Assembly: GCA_025370845.1 (NCBI GenBank)
Contig: JAMXFF010000054.1
Location: 1-47,475, forward strand
DNA length: 47,475 nt
Direction of reading: 5' to 3'
From: Laspinema palackyanum D2a
Lineage (GTDB): Bacteria; Cyanobacteriota; Cyanobacteriia; Cyanobacteriales; Laspinemataceae
Of the stretch, positions 565 to 26,461 are shown piece after piece (the stretch's first letter is position 1; every line of letters begins with the position of its first letter). The notes below the pieces were generated by a model. That model was not told the DNA's origin. It ran no database searches and saw only the letters and a list, made by a program, of their open reading frames with translations. The position numbers and the translations under genes were made by a program.

Positions 565-3500
565 ATGTCGCGTTCCATTCGGGTTCGTCAAGAATTAATC
601 CCCCGTGTCAAACAGGCGGTTACGCGCAGTGGGTTTGTGCGCCAAAAAGATGTAGCACTAGAGTTGGATCTGGCTGACTCTACAATCCGAAATTTCCTCA
701 ACGGTAGACCCGTTGATTCAACGAATTTCATAGAAATTTGTCGGGTTTTAAACTTAGAGTGGCAAGATGTGGCCGATCTGGGGGAACCCGATGGCGATGA
801 TTTATCCCAAGTCTCCGGGAAGGAACCCCAGGAGAGGAAAACCCCCGCCCAGAAAATTCCTTTCGTGTTGCCGCAACTGGATGTGTCTACCTTCACTGGG
901 AGAAGGGAGGAGTTAGACCAACTCAAACAATTGTTGAGCGATCGCCAGGGGGAGAAAGTTTGCACCATTGTGGGATTAGCTGGCGCGGGAGGAATTGGTA
1001 AATCAGCCCTCGCCTGCCACTTTGCCACTCAGCATAAAAATGATTTTCCCGATGGAGTGATTGGGTTGCGGGTGGATGGTAAAGAGCCCGATGCGATCGC
1101 CCGGGAGTTTGCCCGTCGCGGTGGCGAGCAACTCGATCTAGAAGATGAACGGGATGCCGCAACCCTGATGCAAGAGGTATTTGCACATCGGCGGATGCTG
1201 CTGATTTTCGATAATGCCGACAACAGCGACAAGATCCGAAAGTTGCGTCCCGGAGGAAACCGATGCGCGGTGATTGTTACCACGCGCGATCGCCTCTTGC
1301 CTATCGCTTTAGATATTCCAGAGCAAGGTAGAATCGACCTGCTCCCCCTGTCGGATCCCGATGCACGGCTATTGCTGGAACGACTTTTAGGTCAGGAACG
1401 GGTGAGCGCTGAACTCGAAGCTGCCCAAGAAATTATCCGACTCGTCGGCAATTTACCCCTGGCTTTACAAATCGTGGGGGCAGCATTGCAACTCAGAGCA
1501 GGACGTAGCCTCGCAGACTATGGCGCTTCCTTGAGCGAAGAACGATCGCGACTGGGAAGGCTGAAGCTTCGCGGCGAGGAACATCTCAATGTCCAGGCGT
1601 CCCTGTCTTTGAGTTTGGAGATGTTAGAACCGGAGGAGATTGATTTCTTTGCCTGTGTGAGCGTTTGTGCTGAAAATGGATTTTCCCGGCAAGCGGCGAT
1701 CGCAGCGAGTGGATGCGAGGATGAGTTTCTAGCCGAGGATTATCTAGCTTGTCTCTATCGCCTTTCTTTGCTGAACTATTCTGAGGTGGGAGAAAACCGC
1801 TTCGTATTTCACCCCCTCATCCGATTATTTGCTGGGGAACTTGCACAGAAGCGGCAATTGCGAGAATTGGCAGCAGCACGACACGCTCAGTTTTATATCG
1901 AGTGGGTCAAGTCCAGGGAGGAGAACAATCCTGCCGTAGCTGCTGCGATCGCAGAAGAATTCGACGAGATTATCTTAGCGGCGAATTGGATGCAGTGCCA
2001 GGAAACAACATCTAAAACCGACGAAAAGGAAAAATACAGTTTTTTCTACTGCCTTCCGCCATTTTTAGAATTGTATGGTCAATGGCAGAAAGCAGTTGAG
2101 CTGGCTTCTAACTTTCAGTTATTAGCGCAGGTCAATGAAGATTGGGATTGGGCTGCTAAATTCCGAATTAAGCAGGCCAAATATCTGTCACTTCAGGGTG
2201 AATTTTCCACCGCTGAAGAGGTTTTGGCGGGGATTCCAGACATCCTCAGTCGGATTGAGGTAGAAAGCACTCGTCAGCGTTCTGAAGTAAAGTGGCTCAC
2301 GACGTTGGGAGGCATACAGCAAAAGCAAGGACAACTGGATGAAGCGCTCACAGTCCTCCAGCGCAGTGTTGAGATTGCCGAAACCCTTAAGGACCAACCT
2401 TCCCTTGCCATCGGACTCAACAGCTTAGGAGGGTTACTCCAACAACTCGGACGCAGCGATGAAGCCCTGGATGCGTTCCAGCGCCAAGTTGCCATCACCG
2501 AAACCCTCAACGACCAACGACAACTTGCTATTGGACTCAACAGCTTAGGAGGGTTACTCCAACAACTCGGACGCAGCGATGAAGCCCTGGATGCGTTCCA
2601 GCGCCAAGTTGCCATCACCGAAACCCTCAACGACCAACGTTCTCTTGCCATTGGACTCAACCGCTTAGGGGGGTTACTGCAACAACTCGGACGCAGCGAT
2701 GAAGCCCTCAATGCGTTTCAGCGCAGTGTTGCCATCAGTGAAACCCTCAACGACCAACGTTCTATTACCATCGGACTCAACCGCTTAGGTGGGTTACTCC
2801 AACAACTCGGACGCAGCGATGAAGCCCTCAATGCGTTTCAGCGCAGTGTTGCCATCAGCGAAACCCTCAACGACCAACCTTCCCTTGCCATCGGACTCAA
2901 TCGCTTAGGGGGGTTACTCCAACAACTCGGACGCAGCGATGAAGCCCTAGATGTATTCCAGCGCCAAGTTGCCATCAGCGAAACCCTCAACGACCAACGT
3001 TCTATTACCATCGGACTCAACTGCTTAGGGGGGTTACTCCAACAACTCGGACGCAACGATGAAGCCCTAGATGCGTTCCAGCGCCAAGTTGTCATCAGCG
3101 AAGCACTTAACGACCAACGTTCTATTACCATCGGACTCAACTGCTTAGGGGGGTTACTCCAACAACTCGGACGCAGCGATGAAGCCCTGGATGCGTTCCA
3201 GCGCCAAGTTGCCATCACCGAAACACTTAACGACCAACCTTTTGCCATCGGACTCAACCGCTTAGGGGGGTTACTCCAACAACTCGGACGCAGCGATGAA
3301 GCCCTAGATGTATTCCAGCGCAGTGTTGCCATCAGCGAAACCCTCAACGACCAACCTTCCCTTGCCATCGGACTCAACCGCTTAGGGGGGTTACTCCAAC
3401 AACTCGGACGCAGCAATGAAGCCCTAGATGTATTCCAGCGCAGTGTTGCCCTCAGCGAAACACTTAACGACCAACGTTCTCTTACCATCGGACTCAACTG

Positions 3501-4776
3501 CTTAGGGGGGTTACTCCAACAACTCGGACGCAGCGATGAAGCCCTAGATGCGTTCCAGCGCCAAGTTGCCCTCAGCGAAACACTTAACGACCAACCTTCC
3601 CTTGCCATCGGACTCAACCGCTTAGGGGGGTTATTCCAACAACTCGGACGCAGCGATGAAGCCCTAGATGTATTCCAGCGAAGTATAGCAATTGAGGAGC
3701 AAAAAGGTAACGCGCGAGGACTGGCAATGAGATTGAGCAGTTTCAGCCGATTTCTGCGGGAACAGAATCGGATTGAAGAGGCAATTGCCACTCTGCACCG
3801 TCTTGCTGCGATCGAGGATGAACTGGGAAACCCCCAAGGTGTGGTAATGACGCTTACCAGTATCGTCGGTTTATTGAGAGAGGAGGGGCGTTTTGAGGAA
3901 GCGATTGTCATTAGCAACCAAATCCTGACTCAGGAAAAGGAACTTGGCAACGAACAACAACAAGCACAGACACTCACACTATTAGGTGGAGTGCTGCAAC
4001 AGCAAGGGTGCTTGGAGGAAGCAATTGATGTGTTTGAGCGTGCTATTCAACTCAACGAAAAACTAGGGCAAAAACAATATCAAATAGCAGGGCTGGGTGA
4101 TTTGGCTGGACTGCTGCATCAGCAGGGGTGTTTGTTACTCCAAAACTCAGAAAACTGGGATAAAGCAGAAGCACTCCTGCGCCGCAGTCAGGAAATTTTT
4201 GAGGATTTAGAGAGTGACCGACCTCTGGCAATGGTCTTGAACAGCTTGGGCGGACTACTCAGGAAACGGTGCAAATGGGATGAAGCAGAGCATATTATCC
4301 GTTGCAGCTACGATTTGGCCTTTAAAGTTGAAGATTTGCGAGGACAGGCGATCGTTCTCAATAGCTTGGCACAGGTACTGCAATTGCAGGAAAGTGAAGA
4401 AAAATTTTCTCAAGCTATTGCAGCGTTTAAACAGAGCATAAAATTGGGAAAGGAAATCAATGATTTAGAACATTTGGCCAAAGTTCACACGGCTATGGGC
4501 AAAGCCTTAATTCACCAGCGAAATTTTGAAGAGGCAGCCGCGCAACTCGTCGAAGGGTTTAAAATTGATGAAGGTTTGAAAAATAAGCGAGGGTTAGAGC
4601 TAGTCACGCCCAATTTAACCTATGCACTCACAATGTTGGGCAAAGGAGATGAAGCGAGAACCTATTGTCAAAAAGCGCTGGAAATCGCCCCAAAGAGTCA
4701 ACGCTTGCTGGAGCTTTACGATCGCATTGCTTCCCCGAAACCCCGAGTCGAGAAAAAGATGCCTAAACGGCGGTAA
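565..4776 (+). CDS. HTH - NB-ARC - TPR STAND ATPase (1403 aa)
   Basis: The N-terminus (about residues 1-70) looks like a helix-turn-helix domain (RQKDVALELDLADSTIRNFL region). A STAND NTPase follows: Walker A GAGGIGKS at 140-147, Walker B LLIFDNAD with D216, VIVTTR at 236-241, NLPLAL at 296-301 and an MHD-like FHPL at 415-418. A linker leads into about twenty 40-residue TPR units. Units at residues 612-1050 are nearly identical in both protein and DNA; those before and after are diverged. Such proteins are thought to oligomerise when the repeats sense a ligand or invader and to act in signalling or conflict (family knowledge). No effector domain is seen before the TAA, but a cold-shock-like segment follows in frame. 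No clear ribosome-binding site precedes the ATG. Ligand and output are unknown. Confidence 0.9.
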   Translation: MSRSIRVRQELIPRVKQAVTRSGFVRQKDVALELDLADSTIRNFLNGRPVDSTNFIEICRVLNLEWQDVADLGEPDGDDLSQVSGKEPQERKTPAQKIPFVLPQLDVSTFTGRREELDQLKQLLSDRQGEKVCTIVGLAGAGGIGKSALACHFATQHKNDFPDGVIGLRVDGKEPDAIAREFARRGGEQLDLEDERDAATLMQEVFAHRRMLLIFDNADNSDKIRKLRPGGNRCAVIVTTRDRLLPIALDIPEQGRIDLLPLSDPDARLLLERLLGQERVSAELEAAQEIIRLVGNLPLALQIVGAALQLRAGRSLADYGASLSEERSRLGRLKLRGEEHLNVQASLSLSLEMLEPEEIDFFACVSVCAENGFSRQAAIAASGCEDEFLAEDYLACLYRLSLLNYSEVGENRFVFHPLIRLFAGELAQKRQLRELAAARHAQFYIEWVKSREENNPAVAAAIAEEFDEIILAANWMQCQETTSKTDEKEKYSFFYCLPPFLELYGQWQKAVELASNFQLLAQVNEDWDWAAKFRIKQAKYLSLQGEFSTAEEVLAGIPDILSRIEVESTRQRSEVKWLTTLGGIQQKQGQLDEALTVLQRSVEIAETLKDQPSLAIGLNSLGGLLQQLGRSDEALDAFQRQVAITETLNDQRQLAIGLNSLGGLLQQLGRSDEALDAFQRQVAITETLNDQRSLAIGLNRLGGLLQQLGRSDEALNAFQRSVAISETLNDQRSITIGLNRLGGLLQQLGRSDEALNAFQRSVAISETLNDQPSLAIGLNRLGGLLQQLGRSDEALDVFQRQVAISETLNDQRSITIGLNCLGGLLQQLGRNDEALDAFQRQVVISEALNDQRSITIGLNCLGGLLQQLGRSDEALDAFQRQVAITETLNDQPFAIGLNRLGGLLQQLGRSDEALDVFQRSVAISETLNDQPSLAIGLNRLGGLLQQLGRSNEALDVFQRSVALSETLNDQRSLTIGLNCLGGLLQQLGRSDEALDAFQRQVALSETLNDQPSLAIGLNRLGGLFQQLGRSDEALDVFQRSIAIEEQKGNARGLAMRLSSFSRFLREQNRIEEAIATLHRLAAIEDELGNPQGVVMTLTSIVGLLREEGRFEEAIVISNQILTQEKELGNEQQQAQTLTLLGGVLQQQGCLEEAIDVFERAIQLNEKLGQKQYQIAGLGDLAGLLHQQGCLLLQNSENWDKAEALLRRSQEIFEDLESDRPLAMVLNSLGGLLRKRCKWDEAEHIIRCSYDLAFKVEDLRGQAIVLNSLAQVLQLQESEEKFSQAIAAFKQSIKLGKEINDLEHLAKVHTAMGKALIHQRNFEEAAAQLVEGFKIDEGLKNKRGLELVTPNLTYALTMLGKGDEARTYCQKALEIAPKSQRLLELYDRIASPKPRVEKKMPKRR
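2398..3714 (+). repeat. Eleven near-identical 120-bp repeats coding TPR units
   Basis: Units begin at 2398, 2518, 2638, 2758, 2878, 2998, 3118, 3238, 3355, 3475 and 3595. Each encodes 40 residues around the core LGGLLQQLGRSDEALDAFQR. The unit at 3238 lacks one codon (117 bp). Silent positions are nearly as conserved as coding ones, which points to recent amplification or gene conversion. Differences fall at a few positions with two or three alternatives, such as P/R at 1, S/R/C in the N-x-L position, D/N, A/V, and RQV versus RSV, combined in mosaic fashion. Confidence 0.95.
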
Positions 4777-4980
4777 GTTAAATTTATTCGGTACGATCCT
4801 CAAAGCGCTCAACACTGGGGATATATTGCACCAGAAGATCGCAGTGCGGATATTCGCTTTTATGAAAACTCTATCAATCCGGGTGTTTTGTCTCAACTCA
4901 AAACCGGAATGCGGGTTGAAGTTGAGGTTAAAGAAACCCCCACCGGGCCGAGGGCCAAAAGCGTTAAAATAATGCCGTGA
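4777..4980 (+). pseudogene. Cold-shock-domain-like segment, in frame behind a TAA
   Basis: Directly after the TAA at 4774-4776 the same frame stays open for 67 codons to a TGA at 4978-4980. The translation starts VKFIRYDP, continues WGYIAPEDRSADIRFYENSI, then L-x-x-G-M-R-V-E-V-E-V and a T-G-P-R-A-K-S-V-K end. This follows the five-strand cold-shock pattern (V-K-W/F, G-F/Y-I-x-P-D/E-D, D-V/I-F-F, G-x-x-V, G-P-x-A-x-x-V). No ATG, GTG or TTG start suits the domain and there is no spacer, so it looks like the former C-terminus of the TPR protein severed by a point mutation, or reached by readthrough. Confidence 0.65.
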
Positions 4981-5081
4981 AAAAAGCTGTCCAAGATTAA
5001 TAGAACATATTTTGGCAATATTTTTCATTCAGCGAGATCGCCTCTTCCTACTACCAGAAAGGCGATCGCACCTCCAATCCT

Positions 5082-5795
5082 TTAACTATCCGGATCCACT
5101 CCCAACTCCCGCAACCGTTGCGCCAGTCGTTCAGCGCGTTGGCGCTCTTGTTCAGCGCGTTCCTCGGGCCATAGGAGGAGTTCTCCTTCGGCATTCCACC
5201 AGCGCAACCAATAGCCGGTACGATTATCGCCCTTTCCCTGCCAGACTCCTAAAAAGAGTTCTAATCCGGGAATCCAATATCGACCGTCGGCATTGGTCGT
5301 CTGGATTTGGTAGCGATCGCTCTCTAATCGATAGACTTCTAAAGTCGCAGTTTGCGGTTGGAAAATCGCATAAATTGGTACCTTCACCACCCGCTCGTAA
5401 AAATACCACTTCCCGATGCGCTGTTGAAACTCCACGGAGTATTCTTCGCCGTAGGTATCGGATAGAAATTCCATCACCACTAACGGAACGGGTCCTTCGG
5501 TGTGGGGAGTGTAGCTGCGACGGGGATAGGGATGCGGCCAAGGTTCTACCGGACGGACGTACATCCAATCGGGCGCTTTACAAAGGATGCGATTATTAAT
5601 TGCGGCGCAGAGGGCAAAATTTGAGACAATTAAAGCCTCTTCTACTAATGCCGGAGGAAGGGCTTGACGCAGAGCATTTGCTAGTAAAGGATGTTCTGTA
5701 TTTTCCACTGGATCGTCAGGCAGTACAAAGTCATCTGGCAGTTTAGGCCAGGTAATTTTTATCTCAGAAACTGGGGTTTGAGGTATGACAGACAT
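5082..5795 (-). CDS. Uma2 family (DUF820) endonuclease-fold protein
   Basis: The product has the layout of the cyanobacterial Uma2/DUF820 family, a PD-(D/E)XK nuclease-fold group: a helical N-terminus with ALPPALVEEALIVSNFALCAAIN, then APDWMYVRPVEPW, a strand with LVVMEFLS, and K-W-Y-F-Y-E-R-x-x-K-V-P-I-Y. The C-terminus is a basic, glutamine- and arginine-rich coiled coil (EERAEQERQRAERLAQRLRE). The ATG at 5795 is chosen because a GGGAGGT ribosome-binding site lies 6 bases ahead; the upstream in-frame ATG at 5810 overlaps that site. The gene converges on the NB-ARC gene. The biological role of Uma2 proteins is not known. Confidence 0.85.
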   Translation of the reverse strand: MSVIPQTPVSEIKITWPKLPDDFVLPDDPVENTEHPLLANALRQALPPALVEEALIVSNFALCAAINNRILCKAPDWMYVRPVEPWPHPYPRRSYTPHTEGPVPLVVMEFLSDTYGEEYSVEFQQRIGKWYFYERVVKVPIYAIFQPQTATLEVYRLESDRYQIQTTNADGRYWIPGLELFLGVWQGKGDNRTGYWLRWWNAEGELLLWPEERAEQERQRAERLAQRLRELGVDPDS

Positions 5796-5906
5796 TATGC
5801 AACCTCCCATGACCGTTAATAGGGAATTTGCTGTTATTCTATCGGATAGAAGCTGGCGATCGCATCCCCGACCGATTTAACCTCAATTCATGCTGTCTGC
5901 CCTCTG

Positions 5907-5915: not shown

Positions 5916-5981
5916 GACACCAGAAAATCCGGCTTTTAACAACCTTTCCTTAAAAATTGAGAATCCACCGCATTGGCATCC

Positions 5982-7034
5982 ATGAAACAAGAAAGTCCGT
6001 TGTTGCGAGAGTGCCTAGACCATATGAATGCTTTACCGGATATTGAGGCGAGAAACGGCGATCGCAACTCGATTACTATCCGCAACTGCGATAAATCGGT
6101 AGATTATGCTTACAAAATTCAGCCAGATGTTACAGGCACTACCGCTGAACTCATTATCCCATATTTTCAACGATTTGAACGAAATAACGGAGATAAAATT
6201 CTCCTGATTACCCGCTACTTATCCAACCCCGCCATCGATATTTTGCTGGAAAAACAGATAGAGTTTATCGATACAGCAGGCAATATTTATCTCAATAATC
6301 CAGCCGCTTATATTCTGATTCGCGGTCAGCGTCGGCCAAAGGGGAACCCTTTGTCTCGTTCCAAAATCACCGTTACGACACTTAAACTCATCTATATTTT
6401 ATTGAAAAATCCCCACATTTTGCAGGCCACTGTGGGCGATATCGCTGCGGCTGCTGGTATTGCATCCTCAACGGTGCTTCGTAGCCTTCAGGATTTATAT
6501 GAGTTGGGCTATTTACAACGGCAACGAGATGGAAACTATCGAATTGTTAACTATCCCAAACTTTTAGAGCGTTGGGAAATGGGCTACGCTGAAAGTCTTC
6601 GCCCCCAACTGATAGTGGAAGCTTTTACCCCTGCAGGAGAGGAGAGCTTTTCAGATGTAGCAGAGCGTCTTATGGAAGGAGCGAAAGAGGGTAAATTTTT
6701 GTTGGGCGGAGAACTGGGGGCAGCGATCGCAACGGATTATCTTCGTCCCCAAAGCGCTACATTGCATTTAGTTGAGAGTGGTCCTCAGACCTCGGTGAAA
6801 TCACAAGCGATGGCAATTGCCGCAAAAATGAGGCTTAAGCCCAATCTAAAAGGAAACATCGTCTTTGTCCAGCAATTTGGTAAGCAGAATGTCTGGAGTG
6901 AGGATGGGATGGAAACCCTCGCAGATCCATTGCTGCTTCATGCAGAGTTGCTGTTAATTCCGGATGAGCGATCGCAAGAAACTGCCGATCGCCTTTACAC
7001 AAATTCTATTGCACCTAGGCAGCACAATGCTTGA
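5982..7034 (+). CDS. AbiEi-like type IV antitoxin / winged-helix protein
   Basis: A 350-residue protein counted from the ATG at 5982; a TTG three codons upstream is also possible. The N-terminal half has a nuclease-like pattern (ILLITRYLSNPAIDILLEKQ then EFIDTAGNIYLN). Residues about 125-190 form a winged helix (VGDIAAAAGIASSTVLRSLQ, then ELGYLQRQRDGNYRIV). The C-terminal half resembles the AbiEi-type domain, with FLLGGELGAAIATDYLRP and LADPLLLHAELLLI. The next gene overlaps its stop by 8 bases and encodes a nucleotidyltransferase, the usual partner of this antitoxin class. In the family the antitoxin represses its promoter and counters the toxin. The AbiE assignment is by fold and pairing; phage resistance is not shown. 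Confidence 0.75.
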   Translation: MKQESPLLRECLDHMNALPDIEARNGDRNSITIRNCDKSVDYAYKIQPDVTGTTAELIIPYFQRFERNNGDKILLITRYLSNPAIDILLEKQIEFIDTAGNIYLNNPAAYILIRGQRRPKGNPLSRSKITVTTLKLIYILLKNPHILQATVGDIAAAAGIASSTVLRSLQDLYELGYLQRQRDGNYRIVNYPKLLERWEMGYAESLRPQLIVEAFTPAGEESFSDVAERLMEGAKEGKFLLGGELGAAIATDYLRPQSATLHLVESGPQTSVKSQAMAIAAKMRLKPNLKGNIVFVQQFGKQNVWSEDGMETLADPLLLHAELLLIPDERSQETADRLYTNSIAPRQHNA

Positions 7035-7875
7035 ACCGCAAGAGAAGCAGGTTTTAGTCGATCTCAAGGCTGTACTAGATTCCCTAGATCTGCCCATGCT
7101 TGTGGTCGGTGCTGGAGCCAGGTTGTTAATTTTTGACCGACAATACAACAGGGAAGGTCGTGCGACAAAAGACGGGGATGTTGCAGTAGAGTTAGATAGC
7201 TGGTCAGATTTTCAAACCCTGTGCGATCGCCTGACTCTTGGAGAAAACCCCCGCTTCAAAGTCGCTCATAAAGTTCCTCATAAATTCATTCACATGGAAA
7301 CAGGTGTAGAGGTTGATATTGTACCTTTTGGAGAAATCGGTCAACCGAAACAGGAAATTGAATGGGAGGATGGCCTTAAAATGAATTTACTCGGATTGGA
7401 AGAGGCTTTACTATGCGCCAAAGAGCAAGTCATTGACGACGACCTTGTGCTTCCAGTTGTAGATCCTCCCGCTTTTTTGGGTCTTAAACTCATTGCTTGG
7501 TCAGATCGGGGAGGCAATAAAGATTTAAAAGACATCGATTTTATAATTGGAGGAATCGCGGATAGGGGAATTTATGACGAGCGCATTTTTGAAGAACTGG
7601 TCAATGAAATTTCTGAAGGACAAGTTGAGTATCTAGCTGCGCCTACTTTCTTACTAGGGCGAGACATTCGGCGGATGTTTCGGGATGCCACAGTCAGTAA
7701 AATTAATGAAATATTGTCGGAAATCTTGGAGAACCGGGATACAGTGATTCCACAACTCATTCCCCGGACTGTAACTGACAACGAAGAATGGGACGATCGC
7801 TTCGATGCGATCGTTCGACGTTTTGAAGTGTTACAACGCGGGATACTGTCTCCTCCCTCTCCAGACAATACCTAG
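7027..7875 (+). CDS. AbiEii-like nucleotidyltransferase toxin
   Basis: A 282-residue protein from the ATG at 7027, which overlaps the stop of the upstream gene by 8 bases; an ATG at 6964 in the same frame would overlap far more and is less likely. The DNA polymerase-beta nucleotidyltransferase signature is visible: VVGAGARLL, then TKDGDVAVEL with D49-x-D51 and a third acidic strand VEVDIVPFG with D97. A hydrophobic segment, EEALLCAKEQ to PVVDPPAFLGLKLIAW, and KDLKDIDFI follow. AbiEii toxins transfer nucleotides to tRNA in characterised members (family knowledge); the substrate here is unknown. The frame continues open beyond its TAG. Confidence 0.78.
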   Translation: MLEPQEKQVLVDLKAVLDSLDLPMLVVGAGARLLIFDRQYNREGRATKDGDVAVELDSWSDFQTLCDRLTLGENPRFKVAHKVPHKFIHMETGVEVDIVPFGEIGQPKQEIEWEDGLKMNLLGLEEALLCAKEQVIDDDLVLPVVDPPAFLGLKLIAWSDRGGNKDLKDIDFIIGGIADRGIYDERIFEELVNEISEGQVEYLAAPTFLLGRDIRRMFRDATVSKINEILSEILENRDTVIPQLIPRTVTDNEEWDDRFDAIVRRFEVLQRGILSPPSPDNT

Positions 7876-26081: not shown

Positions 26082-26461
26082 CACCATTCTCAACAACCGG
26101 CGAGGGTTTAAACCTTTTAGCCTGTAGAGGCGCTTTTATAAGCGCCTCTACGGCGGGGGTTTAAACCCCCGCCTAATAGCTAAAGTCGGTTAAAAACCGA
26201 CTGCAAGTCTGATACACTGGCGACAACCGGCGGAGGTTAAAACGATTGGCGGCCTCATAGCTTGCATTCGGTTTTTAACCGACTGCAAGTCTGATACAGT
26301 GGTGTTTTCAGTCGGTTTTTAACCGACTTGAGCTGTTAGGCCGCCAATCGTTTAAACCCCCGCTGCAAGTCTGATACAGTGGTGTTTTCAGTCGGTTTTT
26401 AACCGACTTGAGCTGTTAGGCCGCCAATCGTTTAAACCCCCGCCGGTTGTTGAGAATGGTG
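26082..26461. mobile_element. 380-bp palindrome-rich element with 21-bp inverted ends
   Basis: Positions 26082-26102 and 26441-26461 are exact 21-bp inverted repeats. The interior holds a 12-bp hairpin (26124-26135 with 26140-26151), a 22-bp perfect palindrome centred on GTTTAAAC (26152-26173), several AGTCGGTT/AACCGACT hairpins and an 80-bp tandem duplication. Parts of the right side recur inverted at about 26226-26252, and related sequence lies at 26012-26048. No ORF is present. It resembles a non-coding MITE-like or dispersed palindromic element; mobility is unproven and no flanking target duplication was established. Confidence 0.6.
26283..26442 (+). repeat. 80-bp exact tandem duplication
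   Basis: Bases 26283-26362 and 26363-26442 are identical. Each copy holds the hairpin CAGTCGGTTTTTAACCGACTTG and ends in a GTTTAAACCCCCG half-palindrome. Confidence 0.95.

Follow-up and report, generated by a model that had tools for sequence, protein, structure and literature searches.

Contig JAMXFF010000054.1 of the cyanobacterium Laspinema palackyanum D2a (47,475 bp, in the following called the window; one whole contig of a 7.41-Mb, 116-contig genome) carries near its start a gene whose product joins a helix-turn-helix (HTH) module and an NB-ARC STAND NTPase domain to a long row of tetratricopeptide repeats (TPRs), eleven of which are nearly identical. The question raised by this locus is how such units are kept alike within one gene, and whether their turnover diversifies a recognition protein. 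Concerted evolution of the TPR array is well supported by the results below. The protein is probably a STAND sensor that resembles NLRs and belongs to the conflict-system type, whose array would serve as a diversifying arm; a self-diversifying specificity of this putative sensor is no more than plausible.

Eleven near-identical TPR units in one gene

Tandem Repeats Finder (TRF) reported a 120-bp unit repeated 10.9 times at positions 2379-3680 of the window (91% matches, score 1974). A chance origin was rejected, since ten shuffled versions of the window scored 53 at most and contained no array with a period of at least 60 bp. Together with the codon register and the Pfam match to NB-ARC, this bears out the first-pass annotation of eleven near-identical TPR units in a STAND protein; the span given there (2398-3714) was shifted by 18 bp, the codon register giving 2380-3696. 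Units 1-10 are 85-97% identical in DNA and on average 85.7% identical in protein (75-95%, with 27 of the 45 pairs at or above 85%), and the protein mean over all eleven units is 85.0%.

The identity extends to silent positions. Among the 1543 pairs of codons for the same residue in the ten units, 88.5% use the same codon, whereas codon usage in the rest of the gene would lead to 34.4%, and the corresponding value between five flanking TPRs and the units was 40%. The units are thus copies at the DNA level, more than merely similar proteins, and the flanking TPRs of the same protein are diverged, as had been noticed at first reading. The accompanying claim of near-identity even at silent positions holds for shared codons; per site, silent positions differ more than replacement positions, with proportions of synonymous (pS) and nonsynonymous (pN) differences of 0.185 and 0.078 in the ten units. 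A pS of this size indicates that the units are not very young copies, and one recent burst of amplification was therefore rejected in favour of a longer-running turnover.

The 31 variable columns of the ten units fall in 15 codons that change the residue and seven that vary only silently. All four combinations occur in 75 of 171 informative site pairs, and the mean r2 between informative sites falls from 0.32 at distances of up to 12 nt to 0.13 beyond 30 nt. Restricted differences in mosaic order, as originally described, were thereby confirmed, and the free combination of sites and the fall-off of r2 are the trace that swapping of unit segments leaves behind. A search of the D2a genome gave no further DNA copy of the array, which points to local exchange; ectopic conversion from another gene was rejected on the same ground. 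Other protein matches in this genome are 25-38% identical, except for matches to the N-terminal HTH module at 48 and 54%.

Concerted evolution among homologues

Homologues were sought in overlapping genome sets, with two to six candidates scored per genome, so that some may be missed. Matches were found in ten of 99 relatives (E 1e-60, own genome included), in six of 386 genomes of the phylum (1e-100, own included), in 13 of 217 genomes of family f33 (1e-150) and in 13 of 388 genomes of the order (1e-150, own included). The distribution is patchy, with no match at E 1e-60 in the seven same-genus genomes, and plasmids gave none at E 1e-40. Three Prevotella TPR loci from a whole-protein search of genome contigs (~26% identity) were not used. 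The 26 genes analysed, i.e. the window gene and 25 homologues in other genomes, share a common core; over the stretch between the FTGR motif and the first TPR, identity to the window protein is 79% for G044 and 44-63% for 18 other homologues.

An array was defined as at least four units, each with at least 75% DNA identity to another unit of the same gene, and 16 of the 26 genes, from as many genomes, hold one. A tree of their 127 units needs 32 changes of gene label, where 15 is the lowest number possible, against a mean of 99.7 and a minimum of 92 in 300 shuffles, whereas the label for position in the array changes 102 times, which is chance-like (shuffled mean 93.4). Units thus group by gene and not by position, as gene conversion or unequal exchange, the mechanism originally proposed, would have it. 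The arrays of the window, G087, G454, G522, G642 and G756 each form one group (one change); two changes were counted for G044, G571 and G704, three for G524, four for G096 and G614, five for G479 and G550, and seven for G485 and G452. Arrays of close relatives interleave on the tree, e.g. G479 with G524 and G485 with G452 (three to seven changes each). The nearest neighbour lies in the own gene for 94 of 146 units from 16 genes, including 11 of 13 in the window and 11 of 12 in G454, but only one of nine and one of eight in the close pair G479/G524. Units with an outside neighbour sit at or near the array ends in the window, G044, G096 and G452, which fits unequal exchange working on the middle of the array.

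Identical repeat number and order across distant strains had been named as the finding that would speak against the original reading; between species, they are not fixed. G454 has ten units and G528 five, with cores 95.6% identical in DNA, and G452 has 12 and G518 two, with core proteins only 66% identical. In the pair G479/G524, the array is 76.9% identical in DNA, the core 94.4% and the two flanks 90.4% and 93.3%, so that the array has diverged about four times as much as the core and 2.4 times as much as the 5' flanking TPRs.

The N-terminal slot, filled by the HTH module in the window, is occupied by an EAD8, caspase, CHAT or coiled segment in 18 relatives. Pfam assigned EAD8 to six genes (G096, G571, G485, G452, G518 and G595), caspase to six (G479, G550, G524, G614, G642 and G809) and CHAT to two (G257 and G180). 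By eye, HTH was recognized in two of the 26 genes, those of the window and G044, and a coiled segment in G087, G454, G528 and G522, of which G454 was scanned and gave only a sub-threshold EAD9 match; the N-termini of G039, G416, G380, G704, G756 and G788 were left unclassified. An EAD8-effector gene adjoins all six EAD8 genes, the effector being trypsin in five and TIR in one, and a protein with a TRADD-N-like domain adjoins both CHAT genes. In the literature (cited by PMC number throughout), EADs are described as adaptors with a second copy on the neighbouring effector (PMC7159879), and AP-ATPase–TPR genes as adjoining TRADD-N proteins in conflict systems (PMC8195603). Because its neighbours match these published systems, the family looks like an NLR-type conflict sensor. 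The TIR case is locus L061 of G595, where an EAD8-TIR gene stands beside the EAD8-STAND gene in place of the EAD8-trypsin gene of other members.

The gene and its surroundings

The features of the gene are given in Table 1. The P-loop GAGGIGKS was read from the sequence of the NB-ARC domain, and the Pfam scan of the 1403-aa protein gave many TPRs besides NB-ARC. In the register chosen here, the end of the diverged TPR upstream falls within the array.

Table 1. The HTH–NB-ARC–TPR gene of the window and its parts (positions in the window)
Feature	Position	Strand	Basis or remark
HTH–NB-ARC–TPR protein, 1403 aa	565..4776	+	Open reading frame (ORF); 25 homologues in other genomes
N-terminal Cro/C1-type HTH module	565..789	+	HTH_3, E 1.8e-4, 21.9 bits, slightly below the 23-bit cut-off
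NB-ARC STAND NTPase domain	907..1497	+	PF00931, aa 115-311, 56.1 bits, cut-off 23.5
Diverged TPR immediately 5' of the array	2287..2406	+	Counterpart of the first TPR in G044
Homogenised array, eleven 120-bp TPR units (unit 8, 117 bp)	2380..3696	+	TRF and codon register
Unit 8, 39 aa	3220..3336	+	One codon lost, frame kept
Diverged C-terminal TPRs	3697..4770	+	Matched in G044, 75% identity over aa 1030-1396
In-frame TAA ending the ORF ahead of the cold-shock-like domain	4774..4776	+	
Cold-shock-like domain stretch, same frame, after the stop	4777..4977	+	PF00313 CSD, 31.6 bits, cut-off 27

In 12 of the 26 genes (12 of the 25 homologues), the ORF includes a cold-shock-like domain; in G044 the domain lies past an assembly gap and in the window after the in-frame stop. 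It was not found in the other 12, five of which have fewer than 20 bases of contig left. The window copy, cut off from this domain by the TAA, may be truncated or decaying. An in-frame TAA was also seen at locus L058 of G528, a close relative of G454, near the start of the array and in a three-contig assembly.

Other genes of the D2a genome begin with N-termini related to the HTH module of the window. At two loci, L079 (contig C48) and L080 (contig C52), an RT-Cas1-like gene is divergent from a long gene headed by a related HTH module; the RT-Cas1 gene was assigned by Pfam at L079 (RVT_1 and Cas1) and by eye at L080. The long gene gave only sub-threshold STAND/NACHT matches at L079 and none at L080, and the two loci may represent a CRISPR-associated STAND pairing.

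Downstream of the STAND gene lie a Uma2 gene (5082-5810) and then genes for an AbiEi-like antitoxin and an AbiEii-like toxin (5973-7875). GCGATCGC, a mark of cyanobacteria, occurs 80 times in the window against 0.55 expected, on average once per ~600 bases, and is absent from the 3.1 kb at 1953-5061 that include the TPR region. A perfect 80-bp tandem duplication was found at 26283-26443, and 36-bp repeats in both orientations at the contig end (47105-47475), where they are the likely cause of the assembly break.

Sensor arm or neutral repeat

In the proposed sensor, an N-terminal signalling module (here HTH) would precede an NB-ARC switch, with a long TPR superhelix behind it; many relatives add a cold-shock-like domain. 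Unequal exchange or slippage between the 120-bp units within the gene would delete, duplicate and reshuffle them, and this turnover would keep units alike inside one gene and different between species. The superhelix would bind an intracellular cue in its channel, after which NB-ARC would oligomerise and the N-terminal module would signal: in EAD8 relatives it would call in a protease or TIR effector, in caspase or CHAT relatives it would itself be the protease, and in HTH members it would change transcription. Through recopying, the sensor arm could then quickly change in length and in local chemistry. Ligand binding, oligomerisation, the immune role and the benefit of diversification are putative throughout.

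The best of five models predicted from the single sequence for aa 494-1244 is a regular TPR superhelix (mean predicted local distance difference test score, pLDDT, 81; predicted template-modelling score 0.52), with the array at pLDDT 74-93 per ten-residue block. Its best compact structural matches were LGN and Pins (template-modelling (TM) score up to 0.87 of the target, 2.4-2.6 Å); longer TPR proteins (PAF/SKI subunits) came first by E-value, but with TM below 0.3. The TPR domain of LGN/Pins shares the superhelix with the model and differs from it in function, which is eukaryotic cell polarity, and in sequence (~20% identity). The LGN groove wraps extended peptides.

Ligand contacts in TPRs are described for positions 2, 5, 6, 9, 12 and 13 (Magliery and Regan, PMC1261162), and this scheme was used for assigning positions to the groove. 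Of these six, position 6 alone varies in the window, compared with 13 of the 34 others (Fisher P 0.40; with unit 8 lacking one codon, the end of the unit at aa 855 is out of step by one residue in this test). Position 6 varies in all 12 arrays tested, which are 12 of the 16 arrays and cover the homologue set before the last six additions. Over these arrays, the mean entropy of groove positions was 0.61 bits against 0.53 overall (P 0.22), and variable positions were scattered over groove, other helix positions and loops, so that the expectation of variable residues on one binding surface was not borne out. The ratio pN/pS lay between 0.29 and 0.59, below 1 in 12 of 12 arrays (pooled ~0.40, in a crude test without site models). 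Replacement below silent change in every array means that positive selection is not supported, and the comparison of synonymous with nonsynonymous differences that the first-pass annotation had suggested gave the same answer for the window, pS exceeding pN.

The rival that survives best is neutral TPR turnover, i.e. slippage or unequal exchange under purifying selection on the fold, with differences between units that carry no specificity and an array that serves as scaffold or spacer. This is possible, though we hold it to be less than likely; it overlaps the sensor reading in the copying mechanism, and the two are not exclusive. The pN/pS ratios and the spread of the variable positions both agree with it and weigh against a diversifying sensor, as do the other arrays of this genome and the in-frame stops described next; the points listed after them weigh against the sensor reading. 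Comparable arrays occur in the same genome: five of the eight other TPR loci examined have homogenised TPRs, with near-identical units of 40-42 aa (L003, L004, L005, L007 and L009), so that these are not peculiar to the STAND gene. Three of the five (L004, L007 and L009) are TPR-CHAT by Pfam, L007 with an internal gap of N, which suggests that DNA of this kind may be prone to homogenisation in general. The in-frame stops of the window gene and G528 may reflect decay. In G485/G452, the array (83.6% identical) has changed no faster than the 5' flanking TPRs (83.8%; core 91.7%). Ten genes have no qualifying array and lie outside the unit tree, some because their contigs end: the ORF of G528 stops in the second unit, the contigs of G380, G788 and G809 end early, and G039, G416, G257, G180, G518 and G595 have no such array. 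Only two of the five models are confident, the second having a mean pLDDT of 74 and the remaining three 46-47. The window gene itself has an HTH module, no EAD and no effector; its contig ends 564 bp upstream, which puts the upstream neighbour out of view. PADLOC gave no match of the window protein to Avs or another named defence STAND model, its only two hits being to an unspecific TPR model and, weakly and within the TPRs, to bGSDM. Against neutral turnover stand the faster change of the array in G479/G524 and the behaviour of position 6.

At this position, Arg and Cys are both present in nine of the 16 arrays (window, G044, G087, G096, G571, G454, G485, G452 and G704), several of which were homogenised separately. 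The codons are CGY and TGY with a single exception, one CGG in G454, and His, which is also one transition from CGY, occurs in none of the 127 array units. When a differing first unit is set aside, position 6 is Gln in G479, G524 and G614, Gly in G522, Gln or Lys in G550, Ser, Gly or Asn in G642 and only Cys in G756. A bolder version of the sensor reading would take the array as a recombining code, in which the Arg/Cys switch at position 6, along with how many such units there are and how they are ordered, would determine the ligand of the channel, to be rewritten by exchange between units. We consider this a long shot; if true, it would represent a heritable, quickly edited receptor in bacteria, made without reverse transcriptase (RT).

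Another rival takes the protein as a transcription regulator of the AfsR/MalT type, an HTH–NB-ARC–TPR protein answering a metabolite or protein signal outside immunity. AfsR, a SARP–NB-ARC–TPR regulator, likewise has a DNA-binding domain ahead of NB-ARC and TPR; its N-terminal domain belongs to another family than the HTH of the window, and we know of no homogenised array in it. The HTH at the N-terminus of the window protein speaks for such a role, as do the top matches, which are AfsR both in NCBIfam (equivalog NF053617, 262.7 bits, far under the cut-off of 1430) and among solved structures (8k60, the closest to the NB-ARC domain, E 1.9e-34). In contrast, the HTH is confined to two of the 26 genes, the other 24 consisting of 14 with EAD8, caspase or CHAT, four coiled and six unclassified; moreover, genes for effectors or TRADD-N proteins adjoin those with EAD8 and CHAT, and the distribution is patchy even within the genus. 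A regulator of this type is therefore rather doubtful.

It is very improbable that the array is real but owes its unit count and mosaic order to short-read assembly. The genome is a draft, the contig of G087 ends inside its array and the array of G044 holds N, which indicates that draft assemblies struggle at such arrays, and Illumina-based assemblies are described as failing on comparable Podospora arrays (PMC12222747). Arrays are nevertheless present, each in one open frame, in the assemblies of G522, G571 and G452, which consist of three, six and seven contigs. Writing of the variable codons by a diversity-generating retroelement (DGR), as described for putative STAND sensors of multicellular bacteria (PMC10907252), was rejected as next to impossible: none of the four RT hits of the D2a genome is on the window contig and two are RT-Cas1 fusions (one scanned, one by eye), no second array copy was found that could serve as template, and the changes show no adenine-specific pattern, involving instead all bases, silent sites and whole-unit mosaics.

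Close parallels to the proposed sensor are known among the self/non-self receptors of fungi. Fungal NLRs such as Podospora HNWD (WD40) and the NB-ARC/TPR protein Pa_2_10340 likewise combine NB-ARC or NACHT with near-identical short repeats, for which concerted evolution and repeat-number polymorphism are described, TPR examples included (PMC4986451, PMC12222747). Against the threshold for high internal conservation (HIC) of NLR repeats, >85% identity over at least 100 aa (PMC4986451), the window array is borderline and 14 of the 15 other arrays fall below; the mean protein identities of these 15 span 58.5-90.8%, with only G756 above 85%. In the fungal TPRs, the sites under positive selection are reported to map to the concave face, whereas the window family shows no significant enrichment in the groove; allelic variation is documented there within species, whereas the present comparison is between species, with one genome for each; and the bacterial family has EAD/trypsin partners and a cold-shock-like domain where the fungal proteins have fungal effectors. 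WRAP, a cyanobacterial STAND NTPase, also has recently amplified near-identical repeats, and disrupted copies and a proposed immune role are reported for it (PMC9218822). Its repeats are WD40 beta-propeller blades, reportedly without synonymous differences, whereas the window has TPR units with a pS of 0.19. The EAD/TRADD-N counter-invader systems of multicellular bacteria resemble the relatives in the EAD on STAND and neighbouring effector and differ from the window gene, with its HTH and no EAD; their diversification is ascribed to DGRs and exchange of effector domains (PMC7159879, PMC8195603). The available text of PMC7159879 contains none of 'near-identical', 'homogen' and 'identical repeats', and that of PMC8195603 no 'near-identical'. 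None of the titles returned by a literature search concerned bacterial STAND proteins with near-identical TPR arrays.

By this comparison, the regime is one already known from fungal TPR, WD and ANK NLRs and from WRAP propellers, and what appears to be new is a bacterial STAND version built of TPRs, which sits in a family linked to EAD8, caspase, CHAT and TRADD-N. The 16 arrays provide a comparative set for setting repeat recombination as immune diversification against neutral turnover of repetitive DNA. Diversification, if demonstrated, would make the arrays a counterpart of diversity-generating retroelements that works without reverse transcriptase.

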